Assembly (NCBI RefSeq): GCF_014174495.1
Contig: NZ_JACJHR010000001.1
Coordinates: 124,001 to 188,000 of the forward strand
Reading direction: 5' to 3'
Source: Amycolatopsis echigonensis
GTDB taxonomy: Bacteria > Actinomycetota > Actinomycetes > Mycobacteriales > Pseudonocardiaceae
Length of the DNA: 64,000 nt
Part shown: piece after piece, positions 31,705-49,523 of the stretch
Position numbering within the stretch: the stretch's first letter is position 1
Layout of the letters: the number at the start of each line of letters is the position of its first letter
Position numbers and translations under genes: made by a program
Notes under the pieces: model-generated
The model's database searches: none
The model's input: the letters and a program-made list of their open reading frames with translations, nothing else
What the model was told of the DNA's origin: nothing

Positions 31705-31712
31705 GACCTGCC

Positions 31713-33449: not shown

Positions 33450-33475
33450 ACCGACCACCGGAGACAGGAAAGCGG

Positions 33476-34663: not shown

Positions 34664-34768
34664 GAACGGTCGGCGCCACGCCGGACTTCAACCATGACAG
34701 TGCCGCTCATGGTGTCATCAGAGCCGGCAGTCCCGTCCGGGGACAGTCTGCCTCACGTGATGCGGGGC

Positions 34769-34895
34769 TGCTGGTCAGCGCCTTCCGCACCGGCCTGCAC
34801 GCGTCAGCCCCGATGACGGTGACGCGCTCGCGGTCGGCTTCCAGCTCGCGCACGGCGATGACCTTGTCGTCGGGAATCAGCCCGGCGTGGGCGTC
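34769..34895 (-). pseudogene. Possible P-type ATPase fragment
   Basis: One short frame reads AGLIPDDKVIAVRELEAD and then RVTVIGAD, resembling the conserved LLPEDKVAAVRELQ-x(4)-VAMVGDG segment of the P-domain of heavy-metal P1B ATPases. Both flanks are out of frame. A second ATPase remnant lies at 39450. Identification rests on about 28 residues. Confidence 0.4.
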
Positions 34896-35152
34896 GGTTG
34901 TGCGCGGCCGCCTGCAGTGCATTGCCGCACGCGGCCGACCCAGTCACGGGATGGTTTCCGGCGTCTACGGTGATGTGCGGCCAGATGGACGGGTCGGATG
35001 CGTCGCGACCGCGGTGAGGCACACGGAGCGTTTCTAGATGCGAGGCTGCCGCATCTGGAGGCGCTGTACCGGATCGCGCGGCACGCGGCGGCCGACGAAT
35101 TGAGCGCGATCACCGGCTCCGCTGCGGCGTCTCCATACCGGCGACCGCGTGT
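34896..35152. other. Decayed sequence; possible ECF sigma N-terminal scrap at 35022-35112 (+)
   Basis: The frame AFLDARLPHLEALYRIARHA resembles the start of region 2 of an ECF sigma factor (typically HLxALYRxARRLxxD followed by AEDLVQ), but the DAED motif is missing and the frame changes. Otherwise nothing is identifiable. Confidence 0.25.
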
Positions 35153-35168
35153 TGTCGCCTCGCTGACA
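35153..35168. promoter_or_regulatory. Putative Crp/Fnr-regulon site 1
   Basis: TGTCGC-CTCG-CTGACA: right arm perfect, left arm degenerate relative to TGTCAG-N4-CTGACA. It ends 64 bp before the start of the MerT/MerC-like membrane gene. Confidence 0.5.
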
Positions 35169-35232
35169 GTTCCGTGGCCGAACGCGGCACCACCAGGCTG
35201 GAATGGTCGGCAGCAACGGCGAACGGAGCATC

Positions 35233-35610
35233 GTGACCACGTCCCATCGGGAGTCTCCCAGGAAGACCAAGGCCGACCGGCTGCCGGTATGGCGGATCGG
35301 CGTCGTCGGCGGGTTGGTGGGCATTCTCTGCTGTGTCGGCCCGACTGTGCTGGCGCTGCTCGGCTTGGTCACCGCCGGAACCGCGTTCGCGTGGGCGACG
35401 AACCTCTATGACGGTTACGCCTGGGGGTTCCGGCTCGGCGGGTTGGCCGTTCTGGCTGTCCTGGTTTGGCTGTCCCTTCGGCGGCGCGACCAGTGCAGCG
35501 TGGCTGGGATGCGGCGTTGGCGGTGGCGGCTGCTCGGCGTCCTCGGCATCGCCGTCGGCACGTACGTCGCGTTGTACGCGCTGACAACCTGGTTAGGCAC
35601 CTTCGCCTGA
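35233..35610 (+). CDS. MerT/MerC-like small membrane protein with vicinal cysteines
   Basis: 125 residues from GTG 35233 (GGAG upstream). Three to four hydrophobic segments: GVVGGLVGILCCVGPTVLAL containing a Cys-Cys pair in the first helix, as in MerT/MerC mercury transporters, then LGGLAVLAVLVWLSL and LLGVLGIAVGTYVALYALTT. No MerR or MerP is nearby. It could carry mercury or another soft metal, or have an unrelated redox role. It is preceded by a regulon site shared with the Crp/Fnr gene cluster. Confidence 0.65.
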   Translation: MTTSHRESPRKTKADRLPVWRIGVVGGLVGILCCVGPTVLALLGLVTAGTAFAWATNLYDGYAWGFRLGGLAVLAVLVWLSLRRRDQCSVAGMRRWRWRLLGVLGIAVGTYVALYALTTWLGTFA

Positions 35611-35765
35611 GCAGCGGCGGCCGAACCGGCGCGGCAGCGAGTTCGCGACCACGATGGCCGCTCCGGTGGAATGTCTGTGGTAGCGCTTGCCCTCGGCAGG
35701 CGCGTCGATCGGTGCGGGGTGTTGAGTGCGGGTACAACGTTCGACGGGTCGGGAGGGCGCGGGGT

Positions 35766-36098
35766 ATGTCTGAAGTGGTGGTGTATTGGCGGCCGGGTTG
35801 TGTGTTCTGCGCGCGGCTGCGGCGGCAGCTCGATCGCGCTGGGGTCCCGTATCGGCCGGTCAACATCTGGGAAGACCCGGCCGCGGCGGAGACGGTGCGG
35901 TCCATTGCGCGGGGTGACGAAACCGTGCCGACGGTGGTCGTCGGCGGTCAGGGCTTGGTGAATCCGAGCGTGCGCCAGGTGCAGGCGGCGATGCGGGAGG
36001 CGATGCCGGACGTGCCGTTCGCGTCCGATGCCGCGCGCCGCCCGTCGCCGGGTTTGCTGGGGTGGCTGCGGGAGAAGGTGCGCAAGCTCGGGCGCTAG
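35766..36098 (+). CDS. Glutaredoxin/mycoredoxin-like protein with C-terminal extension
   Basis: 110 residues from ATG 35766. VVYWRPGCVFCARL holds the CxxC redox site of actinobacterial mycoredoxins, followed by the NIWEDPAAAETVRSI and VPTVVVGG substrate-binding motifs. A 25-residue basic tail (LLGWLREKVRKLGR) is added to the usual 80-85-residue fold. It reduces mycothiol- or other mixed disulfides. It converges with the HAD remnant (4-bp overlap of 3' ends). Confidence 0.88.
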   Translation: MSEVVVYWRPGCVFCARLRRQLDRAGVPYRPVNIWEDPAAAETVRSIARGDETVPTVVVGGQGLVNPSVRQVQAAMREAMPDVPFASDAARRPSPGLLGWLREKVRKLGR

Positions 36099-36652
36099 GC
36101 ACCGGCGGGCAGCGCCATCAGTCTCTGAGCGACCTCGGCAAGGTCAGAACCGACCACGTCGGCTGGCGCGAAGATCCCGGCGTATTGGCCTTCGTGGCGG
36201 CTGGCCCATCCCGTGGTCAGGCCTGCCCGGCGTGCGCCGTGGCAGTCGAACGCGTGCACTGCCACCAGCGCGGCCTGCTCGGGCTCGCATCCGGTCTTCT
36301 GGAGTGCGTAGTGGTAGACCTGGGCGGGCGGCTTCCAGCTGCGCACGTCGGCGACGGACAGAATTTGCTCGACATACGTCGTCAACCCGGTGCGCTGCAA
36401 GAAATCCTGGGTGTTCCGCGCTGCGCCGTTGCTCAGGCATGCCACGCGGACGTCGTGTTCGGCGAGCAGCCGCAGCGCCGGTTCGACGTCGGGATGCGCT
36501 GGCAGTTCGGCGAATCCGGCCAGGACGTGCTCGACGGCGTCCTTGCTGACCGCGCCGCGGGTCAGGGTGCGCAGCGCGGCCGCGGCGACCTTCGGGAACG
36601 GTTCGTAGTCCCCGGCCAAGGTCAGCGCCATGCCGTCGCGGGCGATTCGGCA
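36095..36652 (-). pseudogene. HAD type II haloacid dehalogenase, N-terminus deleted
   Basis: The C-terminal three quarters of a type II (S)-2-haloacid dehalogenase are present: RDGMALTLAGDY, VRVACLSNGAARN (motif II Ser), SWKPPAQVYHYAL (motif III Lys) and VHAFDCHGARRAGL (motif IV). The first 50-60 residues, including the nucleophile motif DxxGT, are missing. The frame is entered directly from the TGA of the upstream CMD gene, so a deletion has fused the two. Without the nucleophile Asp it cannot work, though an ATG at 36631 could still be translated. Confidence 0.8.
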
Positions 36653-37201
36653 TCAGGCCTCCCATGCCTGGGCGGTGAACGCGTCGTCCAGGGGCGTGTG
36701 GGCCAGATGGTTGATGTAGTTGGACAGGGTCTTCATCGCGACGCCGACGACGACGTCCAGGATCTGCCGCTGCGCGAACCCCGCGGCCAGGAATGCGCGT
36801 ATCTCGTCGTCGGGGACGTTGCCCTGCTCGGCGGCCACGGCGTGGGCGAAGCGGCGGATGGCTTCCAGTTGCGGGTCGCCGAGCGGCTTGCCGTCGCGCA
36901 ACGCGGCGACCGTTTCACTGTCCACACCGGACCGCAGGGCGTTCGTGGAGTGCACGGCCATGCAGTAGTGGCAGGCGTTGTAACGGCTGACCGTGAGCCA
37001 CACGACGTCTTGCCCGCCCTTGGGCAGCGACGTCTTGCGGAACTGCTCCGACAGTGCCTGGTAGGCGTTGAACGCCTGCGGCGACTCGGCCATGATGCCG
37101 TACAGGTTCGGGATGAACCCGAGACTCTTGTGGATCTTTTCGAGCGCCGGGGCCACTTCGGCCGGCGCGGTGTGCTCGTCGTGGATCGTGAACTCCGTCA
37201 T
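36653..37201 (-). CDS. Carboxymuconolactone decarboxylase/AhpD-like protein
   Basis: 182 residues. AhpD-fold signature: WLTVSRYNACHYCMAVHS with the CxxC-x3-H redox/proton relay typical of alkylhydroperoxidase-like enzymes, preceded by ALEKIHKSLGFIPNLYG. It may act as a peroxidase coupled to a thiol partner such as the nearby glutaredoxin. It follows the TetR gene by 24 bp on the same strand and is probably its regulated partner; the HAD remnant lies immediately downstream. Confidence 0.87.
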   Translation of the reverse strand: MTEFTIHDEHTAPAEVAPALEKIHKSLGFIPNLYGIMAESPQAFNAYQALSEQFRKTSLPKGGQDVVWLTVSRYNACHYCMAVHSTNALRSGVDSETVAALRDGKPLGDPQLEAIRRFAHAVAAEQGNVPDDEIRAFLAAGFAQRQILDVVVGVAMKTLSNYINHLAHTPLDDAFTAQAWEA

Positions 37202-37225
37202 CGAATTCCTCCGTGTTCGTCGGGT

Positions 37226-37834
37226 TTAGCGCGGCCACGCGTCGGTGGTATCGCCCGGACGGCGCAACGCGGTCAACGCGGCGGCGACGGCGCTGCGCAG
37301 GGTCGACGCGTCCGCGCCGGCTCGCGAGCGCAGGTTGACGCCTTGGGCCACCAGCACGAGGTGTTCGGCAGTGGCGTCCAGGTCGAGGTCCGGGCGGAGC
37401 TGGCCCAGCCGGTCAGCCGAGTCCAGCGCAGTCCGCAGTGCGTGCCGCACCCGCTGGTGATGTTCGGCGAGCGCATCCGGGATGGGTGCCTGCCCGCCGG
37501 TCTGGAGGTTGGTGGCCAGACAGCCCCAGCGAGCCCGCGGACCCGCACAGCGCGCGGTGATCAGCCCGTCGAAGAACTCCGCGATCGTCGACAGCCCGCG
37601 CCCGCCGGTCTCGAGCGCGGTGAACGCGGGTTCGGCGTGCTCGGCCAGGTAGCGGCGCAGCGCGGCCAGGCAGAGGCTCTGCTTGCTGCCGAACGTCGCG
37701 TACAGGCTTGACCGGCTGATGCCGGTGGTGGCCACGATGTCCGCGATCCCGGTCTCGGCCCAGCCACGCTGCCACAGCAACTGCGTCACGGCGCCGACCA
37801 CCGCCGAGGGATCGAAATGCTTGACGCCCGACAC
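37226..37834 (-). CDS. TetR family repressor
   Basis: 202 residues from GTG 37834, preceded by GGAGG. TetR N-terminal helix-turn-helix: VTQLLWQRGWAETGIADIVA, TTGISRSSLYATFGSKQSL; helical ligand-binding domain with the AEFFDGLITARCAG-x-RARWGCLATN motif of the TetR_C branch seen in AcrR/NemR-like repressors. An inverted repeat of 10-bp arms lies just upstream, suggesting autorepression of the tetR-CMD operon. Confidence 0.9.
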   Translation of the reverse strand: MSGVKHFDPSAVVGAVTQLLWQRGWAETGIADIVATTGISRSSLYATFGSKQSLCLAALRRYLAEHAEPAFTALETGGRGLSTIAEFFDGLITARCAGPRARWGCLATNLQTGGQAPIPDALAEHHQRVRHALRTALDSADRLGQLRPDLDLDATAEHLVLVAQGVNLRSRAGADASTLRSAVAAALTALRRPGDTTDAWPR

Positions 37835-37843
37835 GGTGCACCT

Positions 37844-37871
37844 CCAACCTGGACCGCTCGTTCCAGGTTGG
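37844..37871. promoter_or_regulatory. TetR operator candidate
   Basis: CCAACCTGGA-N8-TCCAGGTTGG, perfect 10-bp arms, located 10 bp upstream of the TetR GTG start. Size and symmetry are those of a TetR-family operator. Confidence 0.75.
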
Positions 37872-37899
37872 ATCGCAGGTGTCGATCGCGCCATCGCAG

Positions 37900-37915
37900 T
37901 GTCTGGTCGCTGACA
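37900..37915. promoter_or_regulatory. Putative Crp/Fnr-regulon site 2
   Basis: TGTCTG-GTCG-CTGACA ends 73 bp before the FAD oxidoreductase start at 37989. Right arm perfect, one mismatch in the left arm. Confidence 0.6.
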
Positions 37916-37988
37916 AACTCCGCTTGCCGGGCGGGGCGGGTCTGGTGTGCTGGACGATGAGTCCGAGGCTCGGCAAGGAGGGCGCAGC

Positions 37989-39434
37989 GTGACGCGAGGC
38001 AGTGGCAGGGCCGACCTGGTCATCGTCGGCGGCGGAACCGCCGGCATCATCGCTGCCCAGACCGCGGGCGGGCTCGGCGCGCGGGTCGTCCTCGTGGAAC
38101 GTGACCGCATCGGCGGTGACTGCCTGTGGACCGGATGCGTGCCGAGCAAAGCACTGATCGCCGCTGCCCGCGCCGCCCAGAACATGCGCACTGCGGGCAG
38201 GTTCGGCATCGCTCCGGTCGAGCCGCAGGTGGATTTCGCGGCCGTGACGGCGCATGTCCGCAGGTCGATCGAGCGGATCGAGCCGGTCGACTCGCCCGCG
38301 GCGCTTACCGACGCCGGTGCCGAGGTCGTCGCCGGTACCGCGGTGTTCACCGGCCCGGACGAACTCCAGATCGAGGGCCGGTCGCTGCGGTTCCGGCGCG
38401 CGCTGATCGCCACCGGCTCCGCCCCGGCGCTCCCGCCGGTGCCCGGCCTGGCCGAGGCGGAGCCGCTGACCAGCGACACCGTGTGGGACCTGGCGGAACT
38501 GCCCGCCCGGTTGGCCGTGCTGGGCGGCGGCCCGATCGGCTGCGAGCTCGGACAGGCGTTCGCCCGCCTCGGCGCCGAGGTGACCGTCGTCGAGGCCACC
38601 GAACGCCTTGTGCCGCGCGAAGAACCCCGCGCTGCGACCGCGTTGTCGGCCGCCCTGTCCGCGGACGGCGTCCGCGTGCTGACCTCGACTACCGTCACCC
38701 AAGCCGCCCGGCAGGCGAAAGGGGTGCGTCTAGATCTCACGGGCCGCACCGGCCCGAGCGTGCTCGATGTCGACCGGGTGCTCGTCGCCACTGGCTGCCG
38801 CCCGCGCACCGCCGGGCTCGGCCTTGAGCAGGCCGGGGTTCGCCTGGACGAGCGCGGCTACGTTGCCGTGGACGCCAAGCTGCGCACCAGCAACCACCGG
38901 ATCTACGCGGCCGGGGACGTCACCGGCGCGCCCGCGTTCACCCACGTCGCCGGGGTCCACGGCAGCATCGCCGCCACCAACGCGCTGCTCGCCCCGATCC
39001 GCCGCATCGACCACGACAAGATTCCCTGGGTGACCTTCACCGACCCCGAGATCGCCCACCTCGGCCTCACCGAAGACCAAGCCCGCCAACGCTTCGGCGA
39101 CGCGGTCCGGGTCCGGCTGCTCCAGCACGAGCACCTCGACCGCGCGATTGTAGAAGACGAAACCGACGGCTTCACCCACGTCGTGCTCGACGCCAAAGGT
39201 CGCGTGCTCGGTGCCACAGTCGTAGGACCGCGGGCCGGGGAGATGATCGCCGAGCTCACCGGATTGCTCGCGCGCGGCGGGAGGTTGAGGGATCTCGCGT
39301 CGGTGATTCATCCCTATCCGGCGTGGTCCGACGGTGTCTGGAACGCGGCCGTGGCCGAGTCGAGCGACGCACTCCAGAGACCGGTCATGCGCCGCGTCAC
39401 CGGTGCCTTGTTACGCCTGCGCCGAGTCCGGTGA
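37989..39434 (+). CDS. FAD-dependent pyridine nucleotide-disulfide oxidoreductase (MerA-like core)
   Basis: 481 residues from GTG 37989, seven bases after AAGGAGG. FAD motif IVGGGTAGI, redox-active CLWTGC (Cys 45 and 50), NAD motif VLGGGPIGCELGQAF, second FAD motif IYAAGDVTG, and the C-terminal dimerisation domain with VIHPYPAWSDGV, where the usual H-P-T-x-S-E carries the catalytic His-Glu pair; here the Glu position is Asp (WSDG), as in many MerA-like proteins. It lacks the N-terminal HMA domain and C-terminal Cys pair of true mercuric reductases. Substrate unknown. It probably reduces a disulfide, quinone or metal. Confidence 0.87.
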   Translation: MTRGSGRADLVIVGGGTAGIIAAQTAGGLGARVVLVERDRIGGDCLWTGCVPSKALIAAARAAQNMRTAGRFGIAPVEPQVDFAAVTAHVRRSIERIEPVDSPAALTDAGAEVVAGTAVFTGPDELQIEGRSLRFRRALIATGSAPALPPVPGLAEAEPLTSDTVWDLAELPARLAVLGGGPIGCELGQAFARLGAEVTVVEATERLVPREEPRAATALSAALSADGVRVLTSTTVTQAARQAKGVRLDLTGRTGPSVLDVDRVLVATGCRPRTAGLGLEQAGVRLDERGYVAVDAKLRTSNHRIYAAGDVTGAPAFTHVAGVHGSIAATNALLAPIRRIDHDKIPWVTFTDPEIAHLGLTEDQARQRFGDAVRVRLLQHEHLDRAIVEDETDGFTHVVLDAKGRVLGATVVGPRAGEMIAELTGLLARGGRLRDLASVIHPYPAWSDGVWNAAVAESSDALQRPVMRRVTGALLRLRRVR

Positions 39435-39449
39435 CGCTCCACGTCGGCA

Positions 39450-39770
39450 ACTCGACTGCATGGATTCTCTGGCGGCAAGTCCAGCACCAGGTCGCGATGG
39501 TCGGGGACGGCATCAGTGACGCGTCCTCGCTGATGCGCGCCGACGTGGGCGTGCCCATCGGCGGGGCACCGACATCGCCACCGGGTCCGCCGACATCATC
39601 CTTGTCCGCGACGACCTCAGGCTCGTGCTCACCGCGCGCCGAGATCAGGTGCCGCTCCTACCGCAGGTTTTAGCAGAACGTCGTGCTGGCGTTCGCGTTC
39701 AACGGCCTCGGCCTCCCGCTTCGGCGACCGGGTTGTCAGGTCACCCAGTATCGCTCTGCCCTCGCTGCTG
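39450..39770 (+). pseudogene. P-type (P1B) ATPase C-terminal remnant
   Basis: Successive frames read QHQVAMVGDGISDASSLMRA (P-domain hinge, normally MVGDGIND), then GTDIATGSADIILVRDDL, then NVVLAFAFNGLGLP, which is the penultimate transmembrane helix of heavy-metal ATPases. At least two frameshifts and a stop separate them and all upstream domains are gone. The gene is dead and directly follows the FAD oxidoreductase, so a metal-handling operon has decayed here. Confidence 0.75.
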
Positions 39771-39948
39771 GCTTGTCTCTGTGCTTTCCCACCCCATGAC
39801 CGTGCGGCCGAGACTTACCATCGACGTCCACAGTGGAGTGATCCGGGGACCGAGCCGATGCACATGATCAGGGGCGAAGATCACCCGCGTCACCGTGGCG
39901 AAGCCTGCCAGCAGGACCGGTCGCGGTGAAGCGGCACTTCGCGTCCGC

Positions 39949-40554
39949 TCAGCGGCGGCGCAGGGTGAACCAGAAAGTGGGGAAGGGGTTCGTGCCCGGG
40001 GTGACGTCGACGAGATCCCAGTCGGAGAACCGTGTGCGCAGTTCGTCGGCGGTCACCCCGAAGATCTTGTCGGGCAGTGCGTCCGGCCCGTACCCGAACA
40101 TCAGCAGGTTCGCCCCCGGTGCCGTGGCGCGGGTGACTCCGGCCGCGTAGCCGTCACGCCGATGCGCCGGGATGGCGCAGAAGCAGCTCAGGTCGAAGAC
40201 GAGCGAGAAGCCGTCGCCCACGGCCAGCTCGACCAATCGAGTGGCATCGCCGAGCAGCAACTGTGCGGACACTCCGGCCGCGTCCGCCTTCGCACGGGCC
40301 TGCTCGATCGCCCGTTCGATCAGGTCGACCCCCACTACCTCCCAGCCGTGTTCCGCGAGGTAGACGGCGTTGGTCCCGGTGCCGCACCCGAGTTCGAGCG
40401 CGCGCCCGGCCGGCTCGCGCTCGACCAGCGCAACCAGTTCCGGCGGCGTGACGCCGTTGTCCCACGGCGCTTTCTCCCGGTAGTACTCCTCGAACTCCAG
40501 CCGGACCGCCGTCTCTTGTTCCGCCGGGCTCTTCGCCTGCATCCGCTGGACCAT
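39949..40554 (-). CDS. Class I SAM-dependent methyltransferase
   Basis: 201 residues. The Rossmann SAM motif ALELGCGTGTNAVYLA is followed by WEVVGVDLIERAIEQA and LLGDATRL, then FDLSCFCAIP; this resembles thiopurine/tellurite-resistance (TehB)-like methyltransferases, which detoxify small nucleophiles or metalloids. Divergent from a TetR gene with a triple CTAGAG array between, so likely its repressed target. Confidence 0.87.
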   Translation of the reverse strand: MVQRMQAKSPAEQETAVRLEFEEYYREKAPWDNGVTPPELVALVEREPAGRALELGCGTGTNAVYLAEHGWEVVGVDLIERAIEQARAKADAAGVSAQLLLGDATRLVELAVGDGFSLVFDLSCFCAIPAHRRDGYAAGVTRATAPGANLLMFGYGPDALPDKIFGVTADELRTRFSDWDLVDVTPGTNPFPTFWFTLRRR

Positions 40555-40571
40555 GACTTCTCCTCCGGTTA

Positions 40572-40603
40572 CTAGAGTCAGCCTCTAGAGTTCCTCTCTA
40601 GAG
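40572..40603. promoter_or_regulatory. Triple CTAGAG operator array between divergent genes
   Basis: CTAGAG occurs at 40572, 40585 and 40598, each 13 bp apart; the last two extend to perfect CTCTAGAG palindromes. The array ends 14 bp before the TetR start and 18 bp from the methyltransferase start. Confidence 0.7.
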
Positions 40604-40617
40604 CTATACTCTTCTTC

Positions 40618-41244
40618 GTGAGTTCTGACAAGCAGGCCGAACGCTCCCGCAAGACCCGCGCGAAGATCGTCGCCGCCGCGTGCGAACTGTTCGTGGAGAA
40701 GGGATACGGGGCGACGAGCCTGCAGGACGTCGCGACCCGGGCCGGGGTGGCCGTCCAGACGATCTACTTCGTCTTCGGCGCCAAACGCGCGCTGTTTAAG
40801 GACGTCGTGGACACCACCATCGCCGGCGACGCCGAGCCGGTGGAAACGATGGGCCGGGACTGGTTCCGCCGCGCGGTCGCCGCTCCGACCGCGGCCGAAC
40901 ACGTCCGCCTGCACGTGCGAGGCACGCGACCCGTCATGGACCGGGTCGCACCGATCATCCCGGTCATCGCGGCCGCCACCGCGACGGATCCGGAGATCCC
41001 GGCGCTGTGGCCGGACCGTGACCCGCGCTATACCGTCCTGCACACGACCGCGAAGTCCCTGGTCACGAAGCCAGGCGCACGGACGGGAGTGTCGGCGCGG
41101 CATGCCGCGGATGTCCTGTACGGGGTGCTGAGCCCGGAGCTGTACCTGGTGTTCACCCGGGAACGAGGCTGGTCGCCCGCGAAGTGGGAGAAGTGGGCAC
41201 GGGAAACCCTGCTCCAGCAACTGTGCGAGGCGGCCGGTTCCTGA
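40618..41244 (+). CDS. TetR family regulator
   Basis: 208 residues from GTG 40618. N-terminal helix-turn-helix: RAKIVAAACELFVEKGYGAT, SLQDVATRAGVAVQTIYFVF; C-terminal helical domain without recognisable ligand signature. Divergent from the methyltransferase with an operator-like array in the 63-bp gap. It would repress both genes until a ligand, probably the methyltransferase substrate, binds. Confidence 0.9.
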   Translation: MSSDKQAERSRKTRAKIVAAACELFVEKGYGATSLQDVATRAGVAVQTIYFVFGAKRALFKDVVDTTIAGDAEPVETMGRDWFRRAVAAPTAAEHVRLHVRGTRPVMDRVAPIIPVIAAATATDPEIPALWPDRDPRYTVLHTTAKSLVTKPGARTGVSARHAADVLYGVLSPELYLVFTRERGWSPAKWEKWARETLLQQLCEAAGS

Positions 41245-41330
41245 GCCCCAAGGCTCCGTCTCGTTTCATTCGGCTCGTCTGCGGTCCGTCAGCGACGCGC
41301 GAGTGACGGTCTGGCCGGACATTGCCAGCG

Positions 41331-42074
41331 CTACGACACATCTTCCCCGATTGCGGGTATGCCGCTGGAATGCCCGGACCGGTTCCGGGACTGGGGAGTC
41401 TGTCTGCTGCTGCGGTAGCCACGCGTCCAGCGGAGGAGGGCGCGGGCGGTGAGCACGGCCTGCATCGCCGCGGCCGGCCGGACGAGGACGGGCCGTGGCG
41501 TGTCCACCATCCGGCCGCGTCCGAAGCTGGCCGTGGCGACCGCGACGACCGGAGCCACCCAGGCCGCCAGCGCGGCGGTGCGGACCCGGATGCTTGGTTC
41601 GTGGTGCAGGGCGTACCAGGCCCAGAAGGCCGCGTCGGCCAGCGAGTCCGCGGCGGCCCCGAACCGGGATGCGGTGCCGAGCCCGCGGGCGAGACGGCCG
41701 TCGGCGAGATCGCTGGCGAGCGCAACGAGGGGGACGGCCCACCCGTCGCTGATCGCGGGCAGGTTGGCGCGGGTCAAGGTGACGATGTCGGCCGCGCCGA
41801 GGGAGCGGCGGTCTTCCAGCATGCCCAGGTGGGTGGCCGCCAGCACCCAGCTCGCCACCGTCCACACAGGACGCTTCCGCCGACCGGCCGCAGCGAAGAC
41901 GAGGTGCAGCACGGTGATCTCGCCCAGCGCAGGTGGCCGCAGCCGGGCTTGACTGATCGAGCGCCGAGTGGTGTCGAGGAGGAATCTGGTCCAGGCTCGC
42001 GGCCGCCACCGTCCCTGACGCAACCCGTCCAGGAGCGCATTGGTGGCTGCGCGGCTGTCCGGCTCGGTCGTCAC
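41331..42074 (-). CDS. CDP-alcohol phosphatidyltransferase family membrane protein
   Basis: 247 residues from GTG 42074. The family signature D-G-x2-A-R-x8-G-x3-D-x3-D is complete in DGRLARGLGTASRFGAAADS followed by LAD, with flanking hydrophobic helices (VPLVALASDLA, WVAPVVAVATA). Such enzymes transfer a CDP-activated lipid or alcohol headgroup in phospholipid synthesis at the membrane. It overlaps the upstream peroxidase-like gene by GTGA and is third in an operon with the NrtS-methyltransferase fusion, preceded by a Crp/Fnr-type site. It suggests a lipid-headgroup step within that regulon. Confidence 0.87.
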   Translation of the reverse strand: MTTEPDSRAATNALLDGLRQGRWRPRAWTRFLLDTTRRSISQARLRPPALGEITVLHLVFAAAGRRKRPVWTVASWVLAATHLGMLEDRRSLGAADIVTLTRANLPAISDGWAVPLVALASDLADGRLARGLGTASRFGAAADSLADAAFWAWYALHHEPSIRVRTAALAAWVAPVVAVATASFGRGRMVDTPRPVLVRPAAAMQAVLTARALLRWTRGYRSSRQTPQSRNRSGHSSGIPAIGEDVS

Positions 42075-42622
42075 CGGTCGTCGCCGAGCATTGTTTTGAG
42101 ACCCGCGTATCCGCCGTCGGCCAGCCGCCGCGCCGAGCGGGTGAAGTAGTCCGCGCTGGCCGTGATGCCGAGCCCGTCGACCAAGCGGTTCATGAGGTTG
42201 AACAACGCGCACACCGAGACCGCGTCGTGCAGGGCACGCTCGTCCCAGCCCGCAGCGAACACCGCGGCGGCGTCGGCTTCGGTCATCCGGCTCGGGGTGC
42301 GGGTGAGCTTCCCGACGTAAGACAGGAGCGGTTTGAGCCGCTCGTCGACCGGCGCGGTGGCGACATCGGCGAGCAGTGCGCTGAGCGTGTTTCCCGGGAC
42401 GCCGAACGCGGCCGCGGTGGCCGTGTGGACGCCGTGGCAATAGCCGCAGGAATTGAGCCCGGAGACGTAGGCGGCGATGAGCTCGCGTTCCGCCACGCTC
42501 ACTGGGGACGGCCCACGCAGCAGCGCCTCGTGATAGTCGAGCAACGGTCCTGCGGTGTCCGGATAGGACCGGAACACGTCGAGCAGGACGGCCTCGGCGG
42601 GCAGCGACGGCAAATACGACAA
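42071..42622 (-). CDS. Carboxymuconolactone decarboxylase/peroxidase-related protein
   Basis: 183 residues. AhpD-fold signature AAYVSGLNSCGYCHGVHTAT contains CxxC-x2-H, and the N-terminal LLDYHEALLRGPSPVSVAER is the helix pattern of uncharacterised peroxidase-related enzymes. A peroxide- or NO-detoxification role is possible; the family does not prove it. It is the middle gene of a three-gene minus-strand operon. Confidence 0.87.
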   Translation of the reverse strand: MSYLPSLPAEAVLLDVFRSYPDTAGPLLDYHEALLRGPSPVSVAERELIAAYVSGLNSCGYCHGVHTATAAAFGVPGNTLSALLADVATAPVDERLKPLLSYVGKLTRTPSRMTEADAAAVFAAGWDERALHDAVSVCALFNLMNRLVDGLGITASADYFTRSARRLADGGYAGLKTMLGDDR

Positions 42623-42634
42623 CAGGTTCTCCTC

Positions 42635-43684
42635 TCAGCTCGTGAGGGGCAGGTGGGCGACGACGCGGCGCAGCGGGAACGGCAGTCGGCGGCCCGGTCG
42701 TGCCCAGGACGCCAGCGCGGCGCGCGCGGCCTCGACGCGGTCGGGTGCGATGTCCGGAAGGTACAGCCCGTCGATGAGCAGTGCCGCCGCGTGCGCATCG
42801 CCGATCTCGCGCCGGAACACGCGGCGTTCGCTGGTGTCGACGATGAACCCGTGCGCACGCAGGATTCTCGGCAGTCCGTCGCGGGCGCCGGGGTTGGGCC
42901 AGGGCTGGGCGCGGATGCCCAGGGACCGCATCACCCGCCACCAGCCGAGCAGCCCGCGCCCGAACCGCATCCGGGACGGGACCAGTGCCACCAGCGTCCC
43001 GCCGGGCCGCAGCACGCGTTTCATCTCGGCCAGCGCCGCGTCGAGCGGGGTCAGCACCGGCAAACACATGGCCGCGCAGACCGCGCCGACGCTGTGGTCG
43101 CCGAGCGGCAGCTGCTCGGCGCGGCCGCGGACCACCGGGCCGCGGCCGGCGGCCACGGCGAGCGCCAGTTCCCCGGCGGAGAAGTCGACGCCGAGCCAGC
43201 GCGCGTCCGGAAGCAACTCGCGGGTGGGAGCGGAGCCGCAGGCGAGGTCGAGGACCACCGCGTGGCGGCCGGGCAACGGTTCCAGCAGCCACGAGTAGGG
43301 CTGTTCCGCCTGCCGGTCCGTGGCCTGCCCCAGGATGAGCTCGGTGATGCCGGGCCGGGCGTCGTGGTAGCGGGCCAGGTAACCGGGCCAGGCCGTGGCG
43401 TCCGCTGCGGTGCGGCGTCCGGCGAGATAGCCTACGCTGGCCACGATAAACGGCACCGTGTAGTTCACCGCCACTCGAATCCACGTGCTCGCGGTTGCCG
43501 TGCCGGCGAGGATCGTCGAGCCCTGATTGACCAGCGACAGCACCGTGCCGACCACGAGCGCCACCGGAAACGCCGTGCGCGCAGTGCGGCCGCGCAGCAC
43601 CAGCAGCGCCGCCTCGCCCGGCCGCGTCCACGAACACCGCGGACACACCTGCGAGCCGGTGTGTCGGCATGCCTCGACCGCCAC
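42635..43684 (-). CDS. Fusion of NrtS-like membrane domain and class I SAM methyltransferase
   Basis: 349 residues from GTG 43684. N-terminal about 100 residues: a CPRC motif, then two membrane helices with NrtS signature LVVGTVLSLVNQGSTILAG and VNYTVPFIVASVGYLAG (the N-Q-G after helix 1 and Y-T-V-P-F in helix 2). NrtS proteins are small nitrate/nitrite transporters that normally stand alone. The C-terminal 240 residues are a methyltransferase with VVLDLACGSAPTRELLP, GVDFSAGELALA and KRVLRPGGTLVALVP, the UbiE/COQ5 pattern. The fusion is unusual: it would anchor a methyltransferase to the membrane next to an anion-transport module. First gene of the operon with a Crp/Fnr-type site 65 bp upstream. 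Confidence 0.83.
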   Translation of the reverse strand: MAVEACRHTGSQVCPRCSWTRPGEAALLVLRGRTARTAFPVALVVGTVLSLVNQGSTILAGTATASTWIRVAVNYTVPFIVASVGYLAGRRTAADATAWPGYLARYHDARPGITELILGQATDRQAEQPYSWLLEPLPGRHAVVLDLACGSAPTRELLPDARWLGVDFSAGELALAVAAGRGPVVRGRAEQLPLGDHSVGAVCAAMCLPVLTPLDAALAEMKRVLRPGGTLVALVPSRMRFGRGLLGWWRVMRSLGIRAQPWPNPGARDGLPRILRAHGFIVDTSERRVFRREIGDAHAAALLIDGLYLPDIAPDRVEAARAALASWARPGRRLPFPLRRVVAHLPLTS

Positions 43685-43749
43685 CTCGTCACCTCACAAC
43701 CGTGGACCCGGGAAGCTAATCGCAGCCGTCGTCCTGCTGACAGGGAAAG

Positions 43750-43765
43750 TGTCAGCGTGCAGACA
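43750..43765. promoter_or_regulatory. Putative Crp/Fnr-regulon site 3
   Basis: TGTCAG-CGTG-CAGACA, 65 bp upstream of the NrtS-methyltransferase start (minus strand). A second, weaker site with a perfect CTGACA right arm ends at 43742. Confidence 0.65.
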
Positions 43766-43931
43766 CCACCGTGAACCGACCAGCACCTCGCGGGTCGTGA
43801 CCGGACACCGCGATCTCGATGGGGAAGTCTTCGAGCGCGGCGCGAACGACTACCGAACCGCAGTCCGCGAGAGGGCGTCTTCGATGGCGCGGTGGCAGGC
43901 CGGGTGGCGTAGCGTCTCGCGGTTTCGTCTC

Positions 43932-44669
43932 CTATCCGGCGGTGGTGAGCAGTTTGGCCGGGTCGAGCAGGCCGATGGCGGCGTAGCGCACTTCGATCAG
44001 GCCGGCGCGCTCGAATTCCTTGAGAATCTTGTTCAGGGACGGCCGCTGCACGCCGAGCATGGCCGCCAGGGTGCGCTGGGGCAGCGGGACCTCGCCGTCG
44101 ACGGCTTCGTCGAGCAGCAACCGGGCGACCTGTTCGGTCAGCGACCGGCCGAGCAACCCGACGATGCGGCTCTGGCTGGTCGCCAGCCGCTGCGCGACGC
44201 TGGAGAGCCAGCGGCGGGCGATCTGCGGGTGCTCGGCCAGGAGTTTCTCGAAGGCTGCGGTGTCCAGTGACAGGGCGGTGACCTCGTCCAGGGCGCGTGC
44301 GGTGTAGGTGAGCGGCATGTCGAGCAGGTGCTGGATGTCGCCGTCGACGTCCCCGGGCTGCAGCACGTAGACGACCGCGCGGTGCCGTCCGGAACCCACC
44401 GACAGCTCGACGCGGCCGCGCTGCACGATCCACACCCCGTCCGCGGCGTCGCCGCCGCGGAAGAGGAGCGCGCCGCGCTCGTAGGTCCGGGTCCGGAGCG
44501 TCGCGGCGAGCGCGTCCACGTCGGCGCGGCCCAGGGGAGCGGCCTCGCCGCGGCCGACGCAGCGGGCTACCCACGCAGCCTGCCGGATCGCCATGTCGGC
44601 GGCGGGACCGGTGCCCAGCAACCGCATCGTCTGCTCCATCGCCGCGGCGGGCAGCTTCGACAACGCCAT
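43932..44669 (-). CDS. Crp/Fnr family transcriptional regulator
   Basis: 245 residues from ATG 44669 (a GTG at 44714 would extend it into its own operator). Cyclic-nucleotide-binding-like domain at about 50-160 ([33 protein letters not shown]), dimerisation helix, and C-terminal helix-turn-helix [20 protein letters not shown]. The recognition helix [12 protein letters not shown] differs from the R-E-T/S-V-S pattern of Crp/Fnr that reads TGTGA or TTGAT. Only one Cys (ARCVGRG), so no Fnr-type iron-sulfur cluster. The ligand is unknown; heme or NO sensing as in DNR-like members is possible. Shared palindromes upstream of at least five neighbouring transcripts make it the likely local master regulator. 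Confidence 0.88.
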
Positions 44670-44721
44670 ACGGCCAGCGTGACAGTGTTCCGCCGGGAAT
44701 GCCTGTCCGATCACCGTGGAG

Positions 44722-44765
44722 TGTCAGCGACCTGACAGAGTTTCCGTCCTGTCAGCGTGCTGACA
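44722..44765. promoter_or_regulatory. Putative Crp/Fnr-regulon sites 4 and 5 in a divergent promoter
   Basis: TGTCAG-CGAC-CTGACA (44722-44737) has perfect 6-bp arms and lies 52 bp from the regulator's own start; TGTCAGCGTGCTGACA (44750-44765) is a perfect 16-bp palindrome lying 41 bp before the DUF427 gene. Centres are 28 bp apart. Confidence 0.75.
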
Positions 44766-44806
44766 CTTCGGCTGCCGGGCTCCCGCAGGGGTGGTGGTAT
44801 GGAGGC

Positions 44807-45154
44807 ATGTTGAGTGCCGTGTGGAACGGGATCGTGCTGGCCGAGGCGCCGCGCACGGTCCGCGTCGAAGGAAACCACTACTTCCCGCCGGATTCGGTGC
44901 ACACCGAGTACTTCGCCAAGAGCCGGACCAAGACGCTCTGCCCGTGGAAGGGCCTGGCGAGCTACTACAACCTCACCTCCGACCGGGGCAGCGAGCTGGA
45001 CGTGGCGTGGTACTACCCGCATCCCAGCCCGCTGGCCCGGCGGATCAAGAACCACGTCGCGTTCTACCCCGCGGTGCGGATCGAGGGCGAACCCGAACCG
45101 CGTCCCGGCGGCAGCTTCTGGAGCCGTCTGTTCGGTCGCACGCCAACGCCGTGA
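44807..45154 (+). CDS. DUF427 domain protein
   Basis: 115 residues. Family signatures: VWNGIVLAEAPRTVRVEGNH, YFPPDSVHTEYF, CPWKGLASYYNL, and DVAWYYPHPSPLARRIKNHV. The fold is a small beta-barrel of unknown function, common in actinobacteria. The start may be ATG 44807, TTG 44810 or GTG 44819 (GGAGG lies at 44801-44805, very close to the ATG). Its promoter carries the perfect regulon palindrome, and the glutaredoxin remnant overlaps its stop. Confidence 0.83.
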   Translation: MLSAVWNGIVLAEAPRTVRVEGNHYFPPDSVHTEYFAKSRTKTLCPWKGLASYYNLTSDRGSELDVAWYYPHPSPLARRIKNHVAFYPAVRIEGEPEPRPGGSFWSRLFGRTPTP

Positions 45155-45425
45155 CCGGGAACGACACCGGTGCCACCGTGTACTGGCGGCCCGGTTGCCC
45201 GTACTGTTCGCGGCTGCTCGGCGACCTGGAGCGGATCGGCCTGCCCGTCCGCAAGGTCAACATCTGGGAGGACGCCGGGGCTGCGCCGCCGGTCCGTGGC
45301 ATGCGGGCCTGGTGGTCACCCTTCTGGCAGCCGTCGGCTGGTTCGCCCTCGCCACCGCCAACCCGACGGCCAGCTATCACCTGGTCCCGGCCGTGGTCAC
45401 CGCCGCCTGGCCTATCGGGACCCTT
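45151..45425 (+). pseudogene. Glutaredoxin fragment fused by deletion to a membrane-protein fragment
   Basis: GTG 45151 opens TVYWRPGCPYCSRLLGDLER and VRKVNIWEDAGAA, a second mycoredoxin closely similar to the 35766 gene, but it breaks at about 45285. The following bases, in another frame, read GLVVTLLAAVGWFALATA and SYHLVPAVVTAAWPIG, a transmembrane protein piece with no start. The join lacks the glutaredoxin VPTVVVGG part, so a deletion of unknown size has fused two genes. It also abuts the 3' end of the minus-strand methyltransferase. Confidence 0.7.
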
Positions 45426-46231
45426 AACTGGGGAGCGCGTTGTCCAGGCTTTTCGGCGACGAGCAGGGCGTATCCGATGAGCTCGTCGGCGACGGCCTGC
45501 CGGGCCAGCGCCGTGTAGCGCAGGACGGCCTCGACATCGATCCTGGATTCGGCCAGTCGGGCGGACGCGGTCATCCGCAGGAGCCGCAGCCGGGCGTCGA
45601 TCTCGTCGATCATCCGCGCGATCGCGGTGTCGTGGCGCTCGGTGTGCACCATACGCAGCCCGGCCCGTTCCAGGATCGCCGCGTAGTCCGCGAGCGGGCG
45701 GGCGTCGGCGATGCAGGCGACCCACGCCGCCACTGTCGTCAGCTCCCCGGGCAGTCCGCCCGCGGCAACGGTCACGTCGGTGATGCCGACCCGTCCGCCC
45801 GGTCGAAGGATTCGTGCGAACTCTGCCGCGGCGGTGGCCTTGTCGGGGAAGGTGCAGAACGCGCACTCGCACACCACCGCGTCGAAAGTGCTGTCCGGCA
45901 ACGGGATTCGCTCGGCGTCGCCGAGGTGGAACCGCACCTTGGCAGCCAGCCCTGCCTCGCCCGCCGCTGCCGTAGCGGCTTCCACTGTGGACTGTCCAAG
46001 GTCGACTCCGTCGACCGAGACGTCGTACTCGGTCGCGAGCAGCCGTGCGGTGGCACCGGGGCCGCTGGCGATGTCGGCGACCCGCTCGCCGCTGCTCAGC
46101 CGCACCTGATCGGCCAGCCGACGGGTCAGGGCGAACCCGCCGGGGTGGTAGGACTCGCCCAGCACCAGGGCCACGGCGTCGAGCTCGTAGGAGGCGGCGC
46201 AACAGAGCTTGATCTCGCCCGGCGTGCTCAT
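45377..46231 (-). CDS. Class I SAM-dependent methyltransferase (ArsM/UbiE-like)
   Basis: 284 residues from ATG 46231, which overlaps the radical SAM stop by ATGA. SAM-binding motif RVADIASGPGATARLLA, then GVDLGQSTVEAATA, FHLGDAERIPLPD and FARILRPGGRVGITDV. An N-terminal CCAASYELDAV and CECAFCTF supply several Cys. Order of domains resembles methyltransferases of quinone, arsenite or lipid modification. Its last 15 to 20 residues (RVPIGQAAVTTAG) overlap the foreign membrane-protein fragment on the other strand, so the C-terminus may have been replaced by the deletion at about 45425. Confidence 0.8.
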   Translation of the reverse strand: MSTPGEIKLCCAASYELDAVALVLGESYHPGGFALTRRLADQVRLSSGERVADIASGPGATARLLATEYDVSVDGVDLGQSTVEAATAAAGEAGLAAKVRFHLGDAERIPLPDSTFDAVVCECAFCTFPDKATAAAEFARILRPGGRVGITDVTVAAGGLPGELTTVAAWVACIADARPLADYAAILERAGLRMVHTERHDTAIARMIDEIDARLRLLRMTASARLAESRIDVEAVLRYTALARQAVADELIGYALLVAEKPGQRAPQLRVPIGQAAVTTAGTR

Positions 46232-47827
46232 TCCGGCACCGCCCGCCGACCGACGTTGGTGGTGTCCGGGGCGCTCGGCCGGTGCCCGTTGCCTGCCGCG
46301 ATTTTGGAACCGTAGGGCGAATCGGCCAGCAACGGCTGGAGTTCTGCCGAGTTGGGCACGACGTCGGCGACCTTCACCCCGGACATCTGTCCGCGTACCT
46401 GTTCCCGGTAGCCGACGGAGTTGTAGGCGCAGAAGGGGATCAACCGCCCGTCCGGGGTGATCTCCTCGACGCAGCACTTCATCAGCTGTTTGACGTTGAG
46501 GGTGTAGGGGTCCTGGAAGTCCTGCACCACGATCATGAACGCCCGGTCGGTGAGGTTGGCCAAGGCTTCGGGCAGGTTGACCCCGCACGCGTCGGCGCAG
46601 TCGAGGGCTTCGGCGGTCTGCCGTAGCCGCTCTTCGGTGGTGTCAGTGCCCATGAACGCCGAGGCGCTCCACAGTTTCTCCAGCGCCTCCCGGATTGCGT
46701 AGTCGGGCACGATGCGGTTGGACACGTAGTCCAGGTAGTCCTCGACCTTGAGCAGCCGCGGGATCGGCACGACCCCGAAATCGGGTTCGCCCGGTGTGCC
46801 TTCGGAGAGCAGGTAGGTGATCGACCGGCAGGTCGGGAAGCAGCACGGCACCGGGAAGAAGTCCTCCTTGCCGAACCAGTCCGGGCGCTGCGCGGCGATC
46901 AGGTTGATGACGTCGGAGTTGGTCAGCCGGGTCAGTGGATCGAACTCCACGTGCCGTCCGGAGTGGGTGACCGGCTGGAACGACACCGACCGCACCGCCG
47001 GATGCGCGAGCCCGAATTCGACGATGTCGCCCAGTTCGTGTTCGTTGAGCCCGCGCTCGACCGCGGCGACCAGAGTGACGGTCAGCCCCGCTTCGGCGCA
47101 GTTGTCCAGCGCCTGCCGCTTGCGCTCGCGGAGATCCTTGCCGCGGATCTCCCGGTGCGTGCGCTCGTCGAAGCCGTCGAACTGCAGGTAGATGTTGATC
47201 GACTTCCCGTTCCGGCCGTTGCGCTCCCCGAGCGCGGTCACGAGTCGCTTGTCGGTGGCGAGGCGGATGCCGTTGGTGTTGAGGGTGACGTTGCGGATCG
47301 GCTTCGCTTGGGCGAGGTCGATGAAGTCGAGGATGTGTTTGTGGATAGTGGGTTCCCCGCCGGAGAACATCACTACTTCCGCCTCGCCTTCCGACGCGAC
47401 GAACACGTCCAGCATCCGCTCGCACTGCTCCAGGGTGATCGCGTAACCGTCGGGCTGGTGGCCGGAATCGGCGAAGCAGATCGGGCAGTCCAGGTTGCAG
47501 TTCGTGTTGACCTCGATGATCCCGAGGCAGGCGTGCTGTTTGTGCTCCGGGCACAGGCCGCAGTCCGACGGGCAGCCGTCCTTGACTTCGGTCTGGAAGG
47601 TCAGCGGGATCGTGCCGGGCTTGTTGAACCGGGCCGAGGACAGGTACGCCTGAGCGTCGCCGTAGACCAGCGCCTCGAATTCGCCGTGTTCCTTGCAGCG
47701 TTTGCGCAGATAGACCTTGTCCTGCCGGATGTTGACGTGCGCGTCGAGCACCACCCTTGCACACCGGGCAGATGCTCTTGGTGTACTCGACGAACACCTC
47801 GTCGCGATCCCGCTTCCGCTCCGCCAC
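46228..47827 (-). pseudogene. Radical SAM protein of the MJ0619/tetraether lipid synthase (Tes) type, one-base frameshift near 47757
   Basis: From GTG 47827 the frame reads AERKRDRDEVFVEYTKSICP, CK and is lost at a GGG run; one base less restores VVLDAHVNIRQDKVYLRKRC and continues to 46228. The length of 1600 bases is 3 x 533 + 1, consistent with one inserted G. Features: N-terminal CPVC...CKEHG metal site; CPSDCGLCPEHKQHAC; radical SAM CNLDCPIC; FSGGEPTIH; further Cys in CCFPTCRS, DCADACG and KCCVEE...PFCAYN. This Cys inventory and order match the Tes family, which joins lipid chains by C-C bond formation between sp3 carbons in archaea; bacterial members exist with less certain roles. If the shift is an artefact, the gene is intact. 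Downstream methyltransferase is coupled. Confidence 0.85.
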
Positions 47828-47905
47828 CAGCCGCTCCTCGGTCCAGGTCCGTGCTCAGGGTGCGGGCATCAGCCCATCAGCCAAGGCCGATCGCCGCAGC
47901 ACAAA

Positions 47906-47921
47906 TGTCAGCACGCCGACA
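47906..47921. promoter_or_regulatory. Putative Crp/Fnr-regulon site 6
   Basis: TGTCAG-CACG-CCGACA: left arm perfect, one mismatch in the right arm; 78 bp upstream of the radical SAM start on the minus strand. Confidence 0.6.
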
Positions 47922-48487
47922 CTGTGCGGACGGCGGTAGTGCACCGGACCCAAGCCGGGCAAGTGTGTCGGCACCCCTGAGACATCAGCCCTTCCGGTCC
48001 GCCGTGACCTCCGGCGTTGCTCCCGGCGTGACGGCAGAAAGTACCGGCACCTCACGGAATGAGGATGTATGGCGGGGCATCTCATGATGTCCACATGGGA
48101 CAGTTGCCCGACGCGGTGGCCCGATGCTCGCGACCGAAGGTTCGCTTCCTGGCACGCCGGTATTCCCCGCGGAATTGAAGCAGGACGAGAGCAGTCGCTG
48201 CGGTTCAGTTGGGCTGCGGGGGTTCCGAGCGGGCAGGGTCTCCATGATCTGTCCCAGGGGCGCGCGGAATCGTGCCCACGTCGCTCGATTTCCCCGCATC
48301 GCCAGCCGATGGAACACATTCGCGTGGTCTGGATATCCGGGTCGGTCAACGGTGCGCCGACATCGCGGGTACGTCCGGTGACGTAGACCGGGCCGCCAAA
48401 GTGTCGCTTCCCGCCCGATGCCTGTGTACGGGCCGCTCGCCGACACTGGCAGCCGAGCCAGTTTCCCGCGGCGAGGAGGACAATCCC
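47922..48487. other. 560-bp stretch without a recognisable gene
   Basis: No frame shows consistent codon bias. GTGTCGG and CCGACAC half-motifs at about 47970 and 48440 echo the regulon site but do not form paired arms. Ribosome site GGAGG at 48475-48480 belongs to the next gene. Confidence 0.4.
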
Positions 48488-48883
48488 GTGGCTGAACAGA
48501 TCCGGATGGCCCGTACCGCGCTCGGCCGTGCGCAGGGCAGGCATCGGGCGCTTCTCGTCGCGACGTGCGTGGCGCTGATCGTGGCCGCGATCGGGGACGA
48601 GGCCACCGGTTACGACGGACCCGGCCCGTTCATCTACCCGGCGTTCGCGTTGCTCGTCGCACTCGTCCCGGGACGGTTCACCCCGCTGGCCGCGACCGTC
48701 ATGAGCGTGTTCTTCGTCTTCGGCGGGCTCTCCTCACCCGCGTTCGTGCACCAGCTGCTCGACGCCGACCGGCTCGGGCCTTTCGCTGCCGGCTGGGCGC
48801 AGATGGCCGGCTTCGCCGTCGCCGCGGTGTGTGCGGTGGCCGCAGTCGTCACCGCGCGCTCGTCCCGCCAACCCTCTGTATGA
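48488..48883 (+). CDS. Small membrane protein, unknown function (four helices)
   Basis: 131 residues from GTG 48488, preceded by GAGGAGG. A basic amphipathic N-terminus (RMARTALGRAQGRHR) leads into four hydrophobic segments: ALLVATCVALIVAAIG, FIYPAFALLVALVPG, AATVMSVFFVFGG and AGFAVAAVCAVAAVVTA. No known domain recognised. It is followed 11 bp later by another small membrane gene and forms a two-gene operon. Confidence 0.7.
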   Translation: MAEQIRMARTALGRAQGRHRALLVATCVALIVAAIGDEATGYDGPGPFIYPAFALLVALVPGRFTPLAATVMSVFFVFGGLSSPAFVHQLLDADRLGPFAAGWAQMAGFAVAAVCAVAAVVTARSSRQPSV

Positions 48884-48894
48884 AGGAGTCCGCC

Positions 48895-49302: not shown

Positions 49303-49459
49303 GGCAGCTGCTCAAAGTACGCGCTGGCCCGGTGGTTGCCCGCGTCTCGGTGAGAGTGTTCGGCGTTGATGCCGAGGGGCAGCAGGCCGTGCTTCATGAC
49401 GGGGCGTTCCCGCGTGCCGGACCCGTGAGCTCTCGCCCTCGGGGCCGACGAAAAGCAGG

Positions 49460-49487
49460 ACGGCCCGCCGGAGATCCGGCGGGCCGT
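49460..49487. terminator. Hairpin terminator (bidirectional position)
   Basis: ACGGCCCGCCGG-AGAT-CCGGCGGGCCGT, a perfect 12-bp stem with a 4-base loop, lies between the convergent membrane gene and the minus-strand phosphoesterase. It could end both transcripts. Confidence 0.7.
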
Positions 49488-49523
49488 CGTGATGTGCTGC
49501 GTCGAATTGTTGCCGCGAACTCG

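Follow-up and report, generated by a model that had tools for sequence, protein, structure and literature searches.

Which regulator acts through the six palindromic 16-mers found in a 64,000-nucleotide stretch of the Amycolatopsis echigonensis genome (contig NZ_JACJHR010000001.1, positions 124,001 to 188,000; hereafter the window), and in which direction does it drive the genes behind them? The first-pass annotation had read these sites as a local Crp/Fnr regulon, and this claim is borne out by sites in the divergent promoter that serves the regulator itself and by a motif that is co-conserved with the regulator. In our view, a Crp/Fnr regulator of the Cmr family (Rv1675c-type) probably governs a local regulon in the window; it would activate its targets, and its DNA affinity would be set by the residue Cys37.

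The coordinates of all six 16-mers were verified. With TGTCAG-N4-CTGACA as the mismatch reference, we scanned the window along with shuffled versions of it and found five sites with at most one mismatch, compared with 0.17 expected by chance, and none of 100 shuffles reached five. When up to three mismatches were allowed, the window total (20) equalled the chance number (20.1); weak matches alone therefore carry no meaning, and only the strong sites are self-supporting. Two perfect sites, 28 bp apart, occupy the region between the regulator gene and a divergent DUF427 gene. One lies on the regulator side (44722–44737, minus strand), 52 bases from the regulator's ATG at 44669, and the other, TGTCAGCGTGCTGACA (44750–44765, plus strand), 41 bases from the DUF427 ATG at 44807. 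Single mismatches are present in TGTCTGGTCGCTGACA (37900–37915, plus strand), 73 bases ahead of a GTG at 37989, in a site before an NrtS-methyltransferase gene (43750–43765, minus strand; 65 bases to GTG 43684), and in a site before a radical S-adenosylmethionine (SAM) gene (47906–47921, minus strand), which lies 78 bases from GTG 47827, the start of the frame with the N-terminal part. The sixth site, TGTCGCCTCGCTGACA (35153–35168, plus strand), carries two mismatches and precedes the gene for a small membrane protein; it is backed by its position and a downstream element, not by its score. A spacing of 41–78 bp to the start codon had been stated for all six sites, and this is correct for five of them, whereas site 35153 lies 34 bases from ATG 35203.

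The regulator itself (43932–44669, minus strand) has 245 residues with Cys37 as its single cysteine and QRPSLNKI as its recognition helix, and its sequence shows it to be related to Cmr of Mycobacterium tuberculosis. When 41 relatives were combined into a profile, this retrieved the Cmr structures 5w5a/5w5b with an E value of about 1e-109, the next match following at 4e-19, and the single sequence searched against Cmr gave 2e-83. The recognition helix of Cmr, QRPSINKI, is one residue apart. Besides, the best three Foldseek matches of an AlphaFold2 model (mean pLDDT 86.6, pTM 0.73) were Cmr chains at 61–62% identity; the root-mean-square deviations of the overlays were large (6.8–8.9), for which the mobility of domains in this family is a possible reason. 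In M. tuberculosis, the site that Cmr binds in the cmr promoter is TGTCAGCGTGCTGACA (Smith et al. 2017; PMC5499769), to which the 16-mer at 44750 is identical letter by letter. With a published Cmr site and a Cmr-like regulator, motif and regulator type were therefore already known; the earlier statement that the motif belongs neither to Crp nor to Fnr was right, while its treatment as unassigned was not. The same paper reports that mutating the palindrome abolishes Cmr binding, that the divergent gene is activated by Cmr in vitro and that Cmr autoregulation was shown in M. tuberculosis (PMC5499769). The window system thus resembles Cmr in family, fold, divergent-promoter site and a cysteine at position 36/37, yet it differs in the divergent partner gene (DUF427 as opposed to rv1676/dsbF), in the number of sites in the divergent promoter (two as opposed to one) and in its predicted targets, a local thiol/membrane set as against the DosR link of Cmr, although no dosR search was made in the genome. 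For Cmr of BCG, chromatin immunoprecipitation sequencing was reportedly performed by Ranganathan et al. in 2016.

With E. coli Crp and mycobacterial CRP (Rv3676), the window system shares the Crp/Fnr fold and the 5-6-5 palindrome layout, and the recognition-helix Arg presumably corresponds to that of Crp. However, the half-site is TGTCA, so that the motif differs from the TGTGA-N6-TCACA of Crp. Compared by eye with the Crp sequence, the recognition-helix Glu of Crp is Pro in the window regulator, and the Arg that contacts cyclic AMP (cAMP) in Crp is an invariant Tyr in the window regulator's family; CRP-Mt chains show 23–25% identity to the window regulator. CooA, whose site is TGTCG-N6-CGACA, likewise has C as the fourth half-site base, but its profile score was 35.6 bits compared with 366 for Cmr. 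Fnr has four Fe-S cysteines and binds TTGAT-N4-ATCAA sites; the one cysteine and the differing motif do not fit this identity. The first-pass annotation had correctly noted that the Fnr cysteines are missing, yet it overlooked Cys37, the counterpart of Cmr Cys36, one of two cysteines through which the DNA binding of Cmr is modulated. Cmr itself is reported to lack 15 of 17 cAMP-pocket residues (PMC5499769).

Across actinobacteria, the motif is co-conserved with the regulator. We considered the best 80 of 90 relatives found in a genome collection, which came from Pseudonocardiaceae, Actinopolyspora, Nocardiopsis, Streptomyces, Nocardia, Rhodococcus, mycobacteria, Geodermatophilaceae and others; together with the window (30000–50000) and a second contig of the same genome, C264, these loci form 82 sources, some of them closely related to each other. 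Genes were called with a simple codon model and grouped into families by a BLAST graph, so that per-family counts are approximate. Between 400 bp upstream of and 60 bp into the matched regulator start, 32 of the 80 relatives carry an exact TGTCA-N6-TGACA and a further 13 a version with one mismatch (45/80), while the best of 59 other half-site letter orders reached 2/80. Over all 82 sources, sites with one mismatch or none numbered 191; of these, 185 lie outside called genes and 142 upstream of starts; the averages for 59 control palindromes were 17.9, 6.8 and 4.8, respectively, with 22 as the top upstream control count. In 16 genomes, exact palindromes numbered 74 (40 of them outside the fetched loci) versus 9 for the reversed control. 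With an E value of 1e-30 or better as the limit, 14 of 298 genomes from the order have the regulator, which is thus patchily distributed, and its nearest relative (97% identity) occurs in Pseudonocardia dioxanivorans.

The way in which the sites are placed points to activation. Pairs of site and gene under 15–20 bp apart, sequences cut by contig ends and near-duplicate promoters (>60% identical) were dropped before counting. Oriented towards their targets, 154 site-gene pairs gave the consensus TGTCA(G/C/T)C-NN-GCTGACA and a preference for T two bases further on, and in 62 of 112 non-redundant target promoters a T-N4-T element begins 30 or 31 bases past the site. These two positions total 63 counts, whereas the biggest adjacent-pair count in 500 shuffles was 19, and a G stands at -2 before the element in 84% of the 62, as in an extended -10. 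Within the window, all five target-facing sites (35153 included) show T-N4-T on the target side only, namely TGGAAT at 35199–35204, TGTGCT at 37946–37951, TTAGCT at 43719–43714, TGGTAT at 44795–44800 and TGGGCT at 47876–47871. Site 44722 has no such element towards the regulator, and the one in the opposite direction falls beyond site 44750. Strict TANNNT boxes were found only 8 times at the 154 oriented sites, and a housekeeping -10 was thus rejected as the conserved feature; a broader -10 pattern stands at positions 30/31 in 35 of the 99 targets that lie away from the regulator, where any single position averages 2.5, and in 5 of 24 targets sharing the regulator's region. As a control, we measured 38 of the 40 exact palindromes outside the fetched loci of the 16 genomes, leaving out the second member of two close pairs. 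Nine of them had T-N4-T on either side as compared with 1–9 at other positions, so these palindromes are mostly chance occurrences or other operators; three precede oxidoreductase-family relatives (L116, L123, L140), and those at L116 and L123 carry the element. If the first T is taken as -12, the site is centred at about -50, just upstream of an unconserved -35 stretch, which would be an activator geometry.

How far does this circuit extend in its own genome (9.66 Mb, 302 contigs)? Eleven places match the motif with at most one mismatch, compared with six for the reversed pattern, and we rejected this weak genome-wide excess as proof by itself; it is clustering and the relatives that carry the case. 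Five of the 11 places are in the window, two on contig C264, two on contig C253 and two within called reading frames (C258, C283), which means that, apart from the C253 pair and the two coding matches, all strong sites sit in two clusters. The first-pass annotation had held that equally frequent and equally placed matches before unrelated genes would speak against the regulon; the clustering speaks in its favour, the bare 11 against 6 does not. About 21 kb separate the C264 sites, of which one precedes a radical SAM paralogue and the other lies beside a paralogous regulator with 68% identity to that of the window, and the surroundings hold further counterparts of window genes (methyltransferase, DUF427, membrane protein, glutaredoxin-like protein). 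We regard C264 as a putative second circuit in which the paralogue of the regulator is paired with sites of the same motif. A MerA-type reductase with a CC tail, a MerR-family gene and an extracytoplasmic function (ECF) sigma factor lie nearby (L013 5000–12500; L012 13700–15600), as do ArsR-like and multicopper-oxidase-like genes (labels by eye), and this neighbourhood looks like a stress or metal island.

As for the targets, the DUF427 (PF04248) gene (44807–45154, plus strand) is a Pfam match and, given its spacing from the site, probably leaderless. The gene at 37989–39434 (plus strand) encodes a flavin adenine dinucleotide (FAD)-dependent disulfide oxidoreductase with the redox pair GGDCLWTGC, in line with the earlier label, but its C-terminus RRVTGALLRLRRVR is without the CC pair of MerA; this absence and a MerA score of 396.9 bits, under the cut-off of 454.45, led us to reject a MerA identity. 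On the minus strand, an NrtS domain and a methyltransferase share one frame (42635–43684), with the NrtS domain passing NCBIfam NF038050 over residues 37–85 (40.3 bits, cut-off 25), and a CMD/AhpD-like gene follows at 42071–42622. The small membrane protein (family 3; 35203–35610, plus strand) had been labelled MerT/MerC, a name that we do not keep: it is MerT-like by eye only and has no Pfam or NCBIfam match at E 0.001. Its true start is likelier a GTG about 30 bp past ATG 35203, since this ATG adjoins the predicted -10-like element. Finally, the product of the radical SAM gene (46228–47827, minus strand) is homologous to the tetraether lipid synthase Tes (7tol; residues 11–454, E 3e-71). Yet the 508-residue frame by itself scored 302 of 450 bits for NCBIfam Tes and 314.5 of 490 for TrsS, both below the cut-offs, and we use the label Tes-like only. 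The N-terminal part of this gene and the remaining 508 residues are in different frames, the change lying near 47755, while the C264 paralogue is open throughout; the split reflects either an assembly error or a broken gene. Downstream of DUF427 (45154–45480), we noticed by eye a glutaredoxin-like start, a gap and then the membrane part of the C264 relative, and this copy looks degraded.

Taken over all sources and counted as loci with a site upstream among the loci holding the family, where operon-internal genes would lack a site of their own, sites precede the regulator in 39/70, DUF427 in 19/23, FAD disulfide oxidoreductases in 14/34, radical SAM genes in 9/21, NrtS-methyltransferases in 7/11 and family 3 in 6/23 cases. 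Two other small-membrane-protein families reach 9/13 and 7/13, CMD genes 5/16, thioredoxin-like genes 4/14 and multicopper-oxidase-like genes 3/15. Thiol-disulfide chemistry and the membrane seem to be the functions that the targets have in common.

What signal might set the switch is suggested by its cysteines. Cys37 is Cys in 77 of 82 relatives. The second switch position (Cmr Cys131) is Ala132 in the window regulator and Cys in 45 of 82; it lacks the cysteine in the other 37, 34 of which retain Cys37, and a quick tree built from the 82 requires at least four changes at this position. Both cysteines are present in the C264 paralogue. Since the second cysteine varies within the family, it gives no ground for excluding the window protein from it. 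Nevertheless, a protein with Ala132 in place of the partner cysteine cannot be credited with the published disulfide switch, nor can a disulfide be the general switch when so many relatives lack the second cysteine; our guess is a single-thiol event, be it nitrosation, mycothiolation or an inter-subunit bond. For Cmr, it is reported that the reduced protein binds DNA and that nitrosation or oxidation weakens binding (PMC5499769). The proposal that a single redox, nitric oxide (NO) or nitrite stimulus turns all the genes on is therefore doubtful in sign and kind, given this weakening, the activating geometry and the missing second cysteine. By analogy with Cmr, NO would be expected to lower the targets rather than raise them, because nitrosation weakens binding and the geometry here is activating.

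In the circuit that we propose, the regulator would act as a dimer on TGTCA(GCNNGC)TGACA palindromes, which at target promoters would have their centre near -50, with the -10-like T-N4-T following 30 or 31 bases on. There the regulator would most likely activate, while at its own divergent promoter it would be autoregulatory. Unmodified Cys37 would permit binding, while a nitrosated or otherwise modified Cys37 would release the DNA, as published Cmr biochemistry implies. The targets would be DUF427, the disulfide oxidoreductase, the small membrane protein, the NrtS-methyltransferase and the Tes-like radical SAM enzyme, a programme of thiol redox and probably membrane-lipid functions.

Other accounts of the same sites deserve consideration. 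They could be operators of another protein, for instance of the MarR type, with the Crp/Fnr gene merely lying among them. On C253 (L016 7693–7736), two perfect TGTCAG-N4-CTGACA palindromes indeed stand 28 bp apart between MarR-like and VOC-like genes (labelled by eye, without a family search), and a comparable pair with 27 bp spacing occurs in another genome (G311:C155). However, the inner bases of the C253 palindromes are GG..TC and GG..CC, as opposed to GC..GC in the Cmr set, and the motif follows the Cmr gene and equals the published Cmr site. We therefore consider the C253 pair a look-alike operator of another, unrelated regulator, and this explanation of the window extremely improbable. 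A heavy-metal regulon, in which MerT-like, MerA-like and glutaredoxin-like genes would answer Hg(II), could draw on the MerA-type gene with CC, the MerR-family gene and the ArsR-like gene (by eye) near the C264 circuit. Yet none of the 15 site-bearing oxidoreductases ends in CC, whereas the nine that do have no site, and the MerT-like protein lacks a family match; mercury resistance was accordingly rejected as the common theme, and such a regulon is very unlikely.

More weight is due to two accounts that keep the regulator and its sites. In one, the regulator is mainly a repressor that occludes its promoters until oxidation or nitrosation frees all targets jointly, the direction that the first-pass annotation had supposed. 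Cmr is reported to repress dosR and its own upstream promoter and to bind less well when nitrosated (PMC5499769). In front of regulator genes, moreover, NNAT often comes directly after the final CA of the site and could form an overlapping -10; four bases past the site, a T is found in 19 of 30 regulator genes as compared with 29 of 99 targets away from the regulator. Divergent sites shared by two genes, together with genes missed in calling, partly confound this signal, with a mirror A in 40 of 99 far targets, and the promoter of the window's regulator does not show it; autorepression by way of an overlapping -10 is suggestive only. At the targets, the -10-like element lies 30 or 31 bases beyond the site and hence does not overlap it, and the in vitro activation of the divergent gene by Cmr (PMC5499769) also speaks against general repression, which we deem unlikely. 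A stronger contender, though less probable than the proposed circuit, has the window regulator blind to redox and NO: it would be a standing activator or respond to some ligand through its altered nucleotide pocket, with the redox switch preserved in the C264 paralogue. Cmr with one or both cysteines changed to Ala is reported to be locked in a 'reduced', DNA-binding form, and one-cysteine Cmr is insensitive to oxidation (PMC5499769); the window protein has Ala where its C264 paralogue has Cys. The retention of Cys37 in relatives with and without the second cysteine argues for a role of its own.

An activating, Cys37-controlled Cmr-type regulon nevertheless has several observations weighing against it. 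The Cys37 step is the least certain one, as an intramolecular disulfide cannot form in a one-cysteine protein, and because one-cysteine Cmr mutants behave as locked reduced, the window protein may by analogy be redox-blind. The classical Crp positions do not include a centre at -50, A at the second place of the element is found in 2% of the 62 promoters, unlike a housekeeping -10, and the T-N4-T pattern was picked after viewing the sequences, so that the shuffles correct for the choice of position but not for that of pattern. Sites before target families are far from universal, as the radical SAM and MerT-like counts illustrate; in 35 of the 80 relatives the searched regulator region contains no site with one mismatch or fewer, and for 12 of the 80 this holds for all of the locus DNA examined. 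One control palindrome totals 126 sites, though only 30 of these are outside genes, and perfect palindromes do occur at an unrelated MarR-like gene.

The regulator family, its DNA site, the divergent arrangement and redox sensitivity are already known. Among the matches listed in the open-access literature searched, we found no account of such a regulon beyond mycobacteria or of its targets, nor of a fixed layout of its promoters, a regulator with one cysteine or two paralogous circuits per genome. These features suggest that the Cmr-type switch is an old, widespread local control circuit, and they take Cmr beyond mycobacteria, as a switch that is widespread in actinobacteria and has a defined motif, promoter layout and set of soil-species targets. 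It is tempting, albeit quite tentative, to see Cmr as a specialised branch of an old actinobacterial switch that first activated local thiol and membrane-lipid genes from -50, in which one near-invariant cysteine reads the signal, the disulfide partner is a changeable add-on, and one- and two-cysteine versions run in parallel in single genomes. As one genome offers natural one- and two-cysteine sensors on the same kind of DNA site, a direct comparison is possible, and the signal can be sought in soil species instead of a pathogen. Besides, the DUF427 family and the Tes-like radical SAM enzyme gain a shared regulatory context.

Further Crp/Fnr-type genes came up among the relatives. In Nocardiopsis, a second, diverged paralogue with the helix EMLGVCRPSLNK and 55–57% identity to the window regulator lies about 1.6 kb upstream of the main regulator (L079, L086 and L087 near 7.8–8.4 kb; L080 1268–1909). 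Family 18 (L082 6005–6739) comprises another Crp/Fnr-type gene (Pfam HTH_Crp_2, cNMP_binding) in 10 of 82 sources, two of which have a Cmr-type site upstream of it. Lastly, one of 72,556 plasmid records, NZ_CP126902.1 of Mycolicibacterium vanbaalenii, encodes a Cmr relative with 60.6% identity (141688–142395; E limit 1e-25), so a Cmr-type gene can be plasmid-borne.

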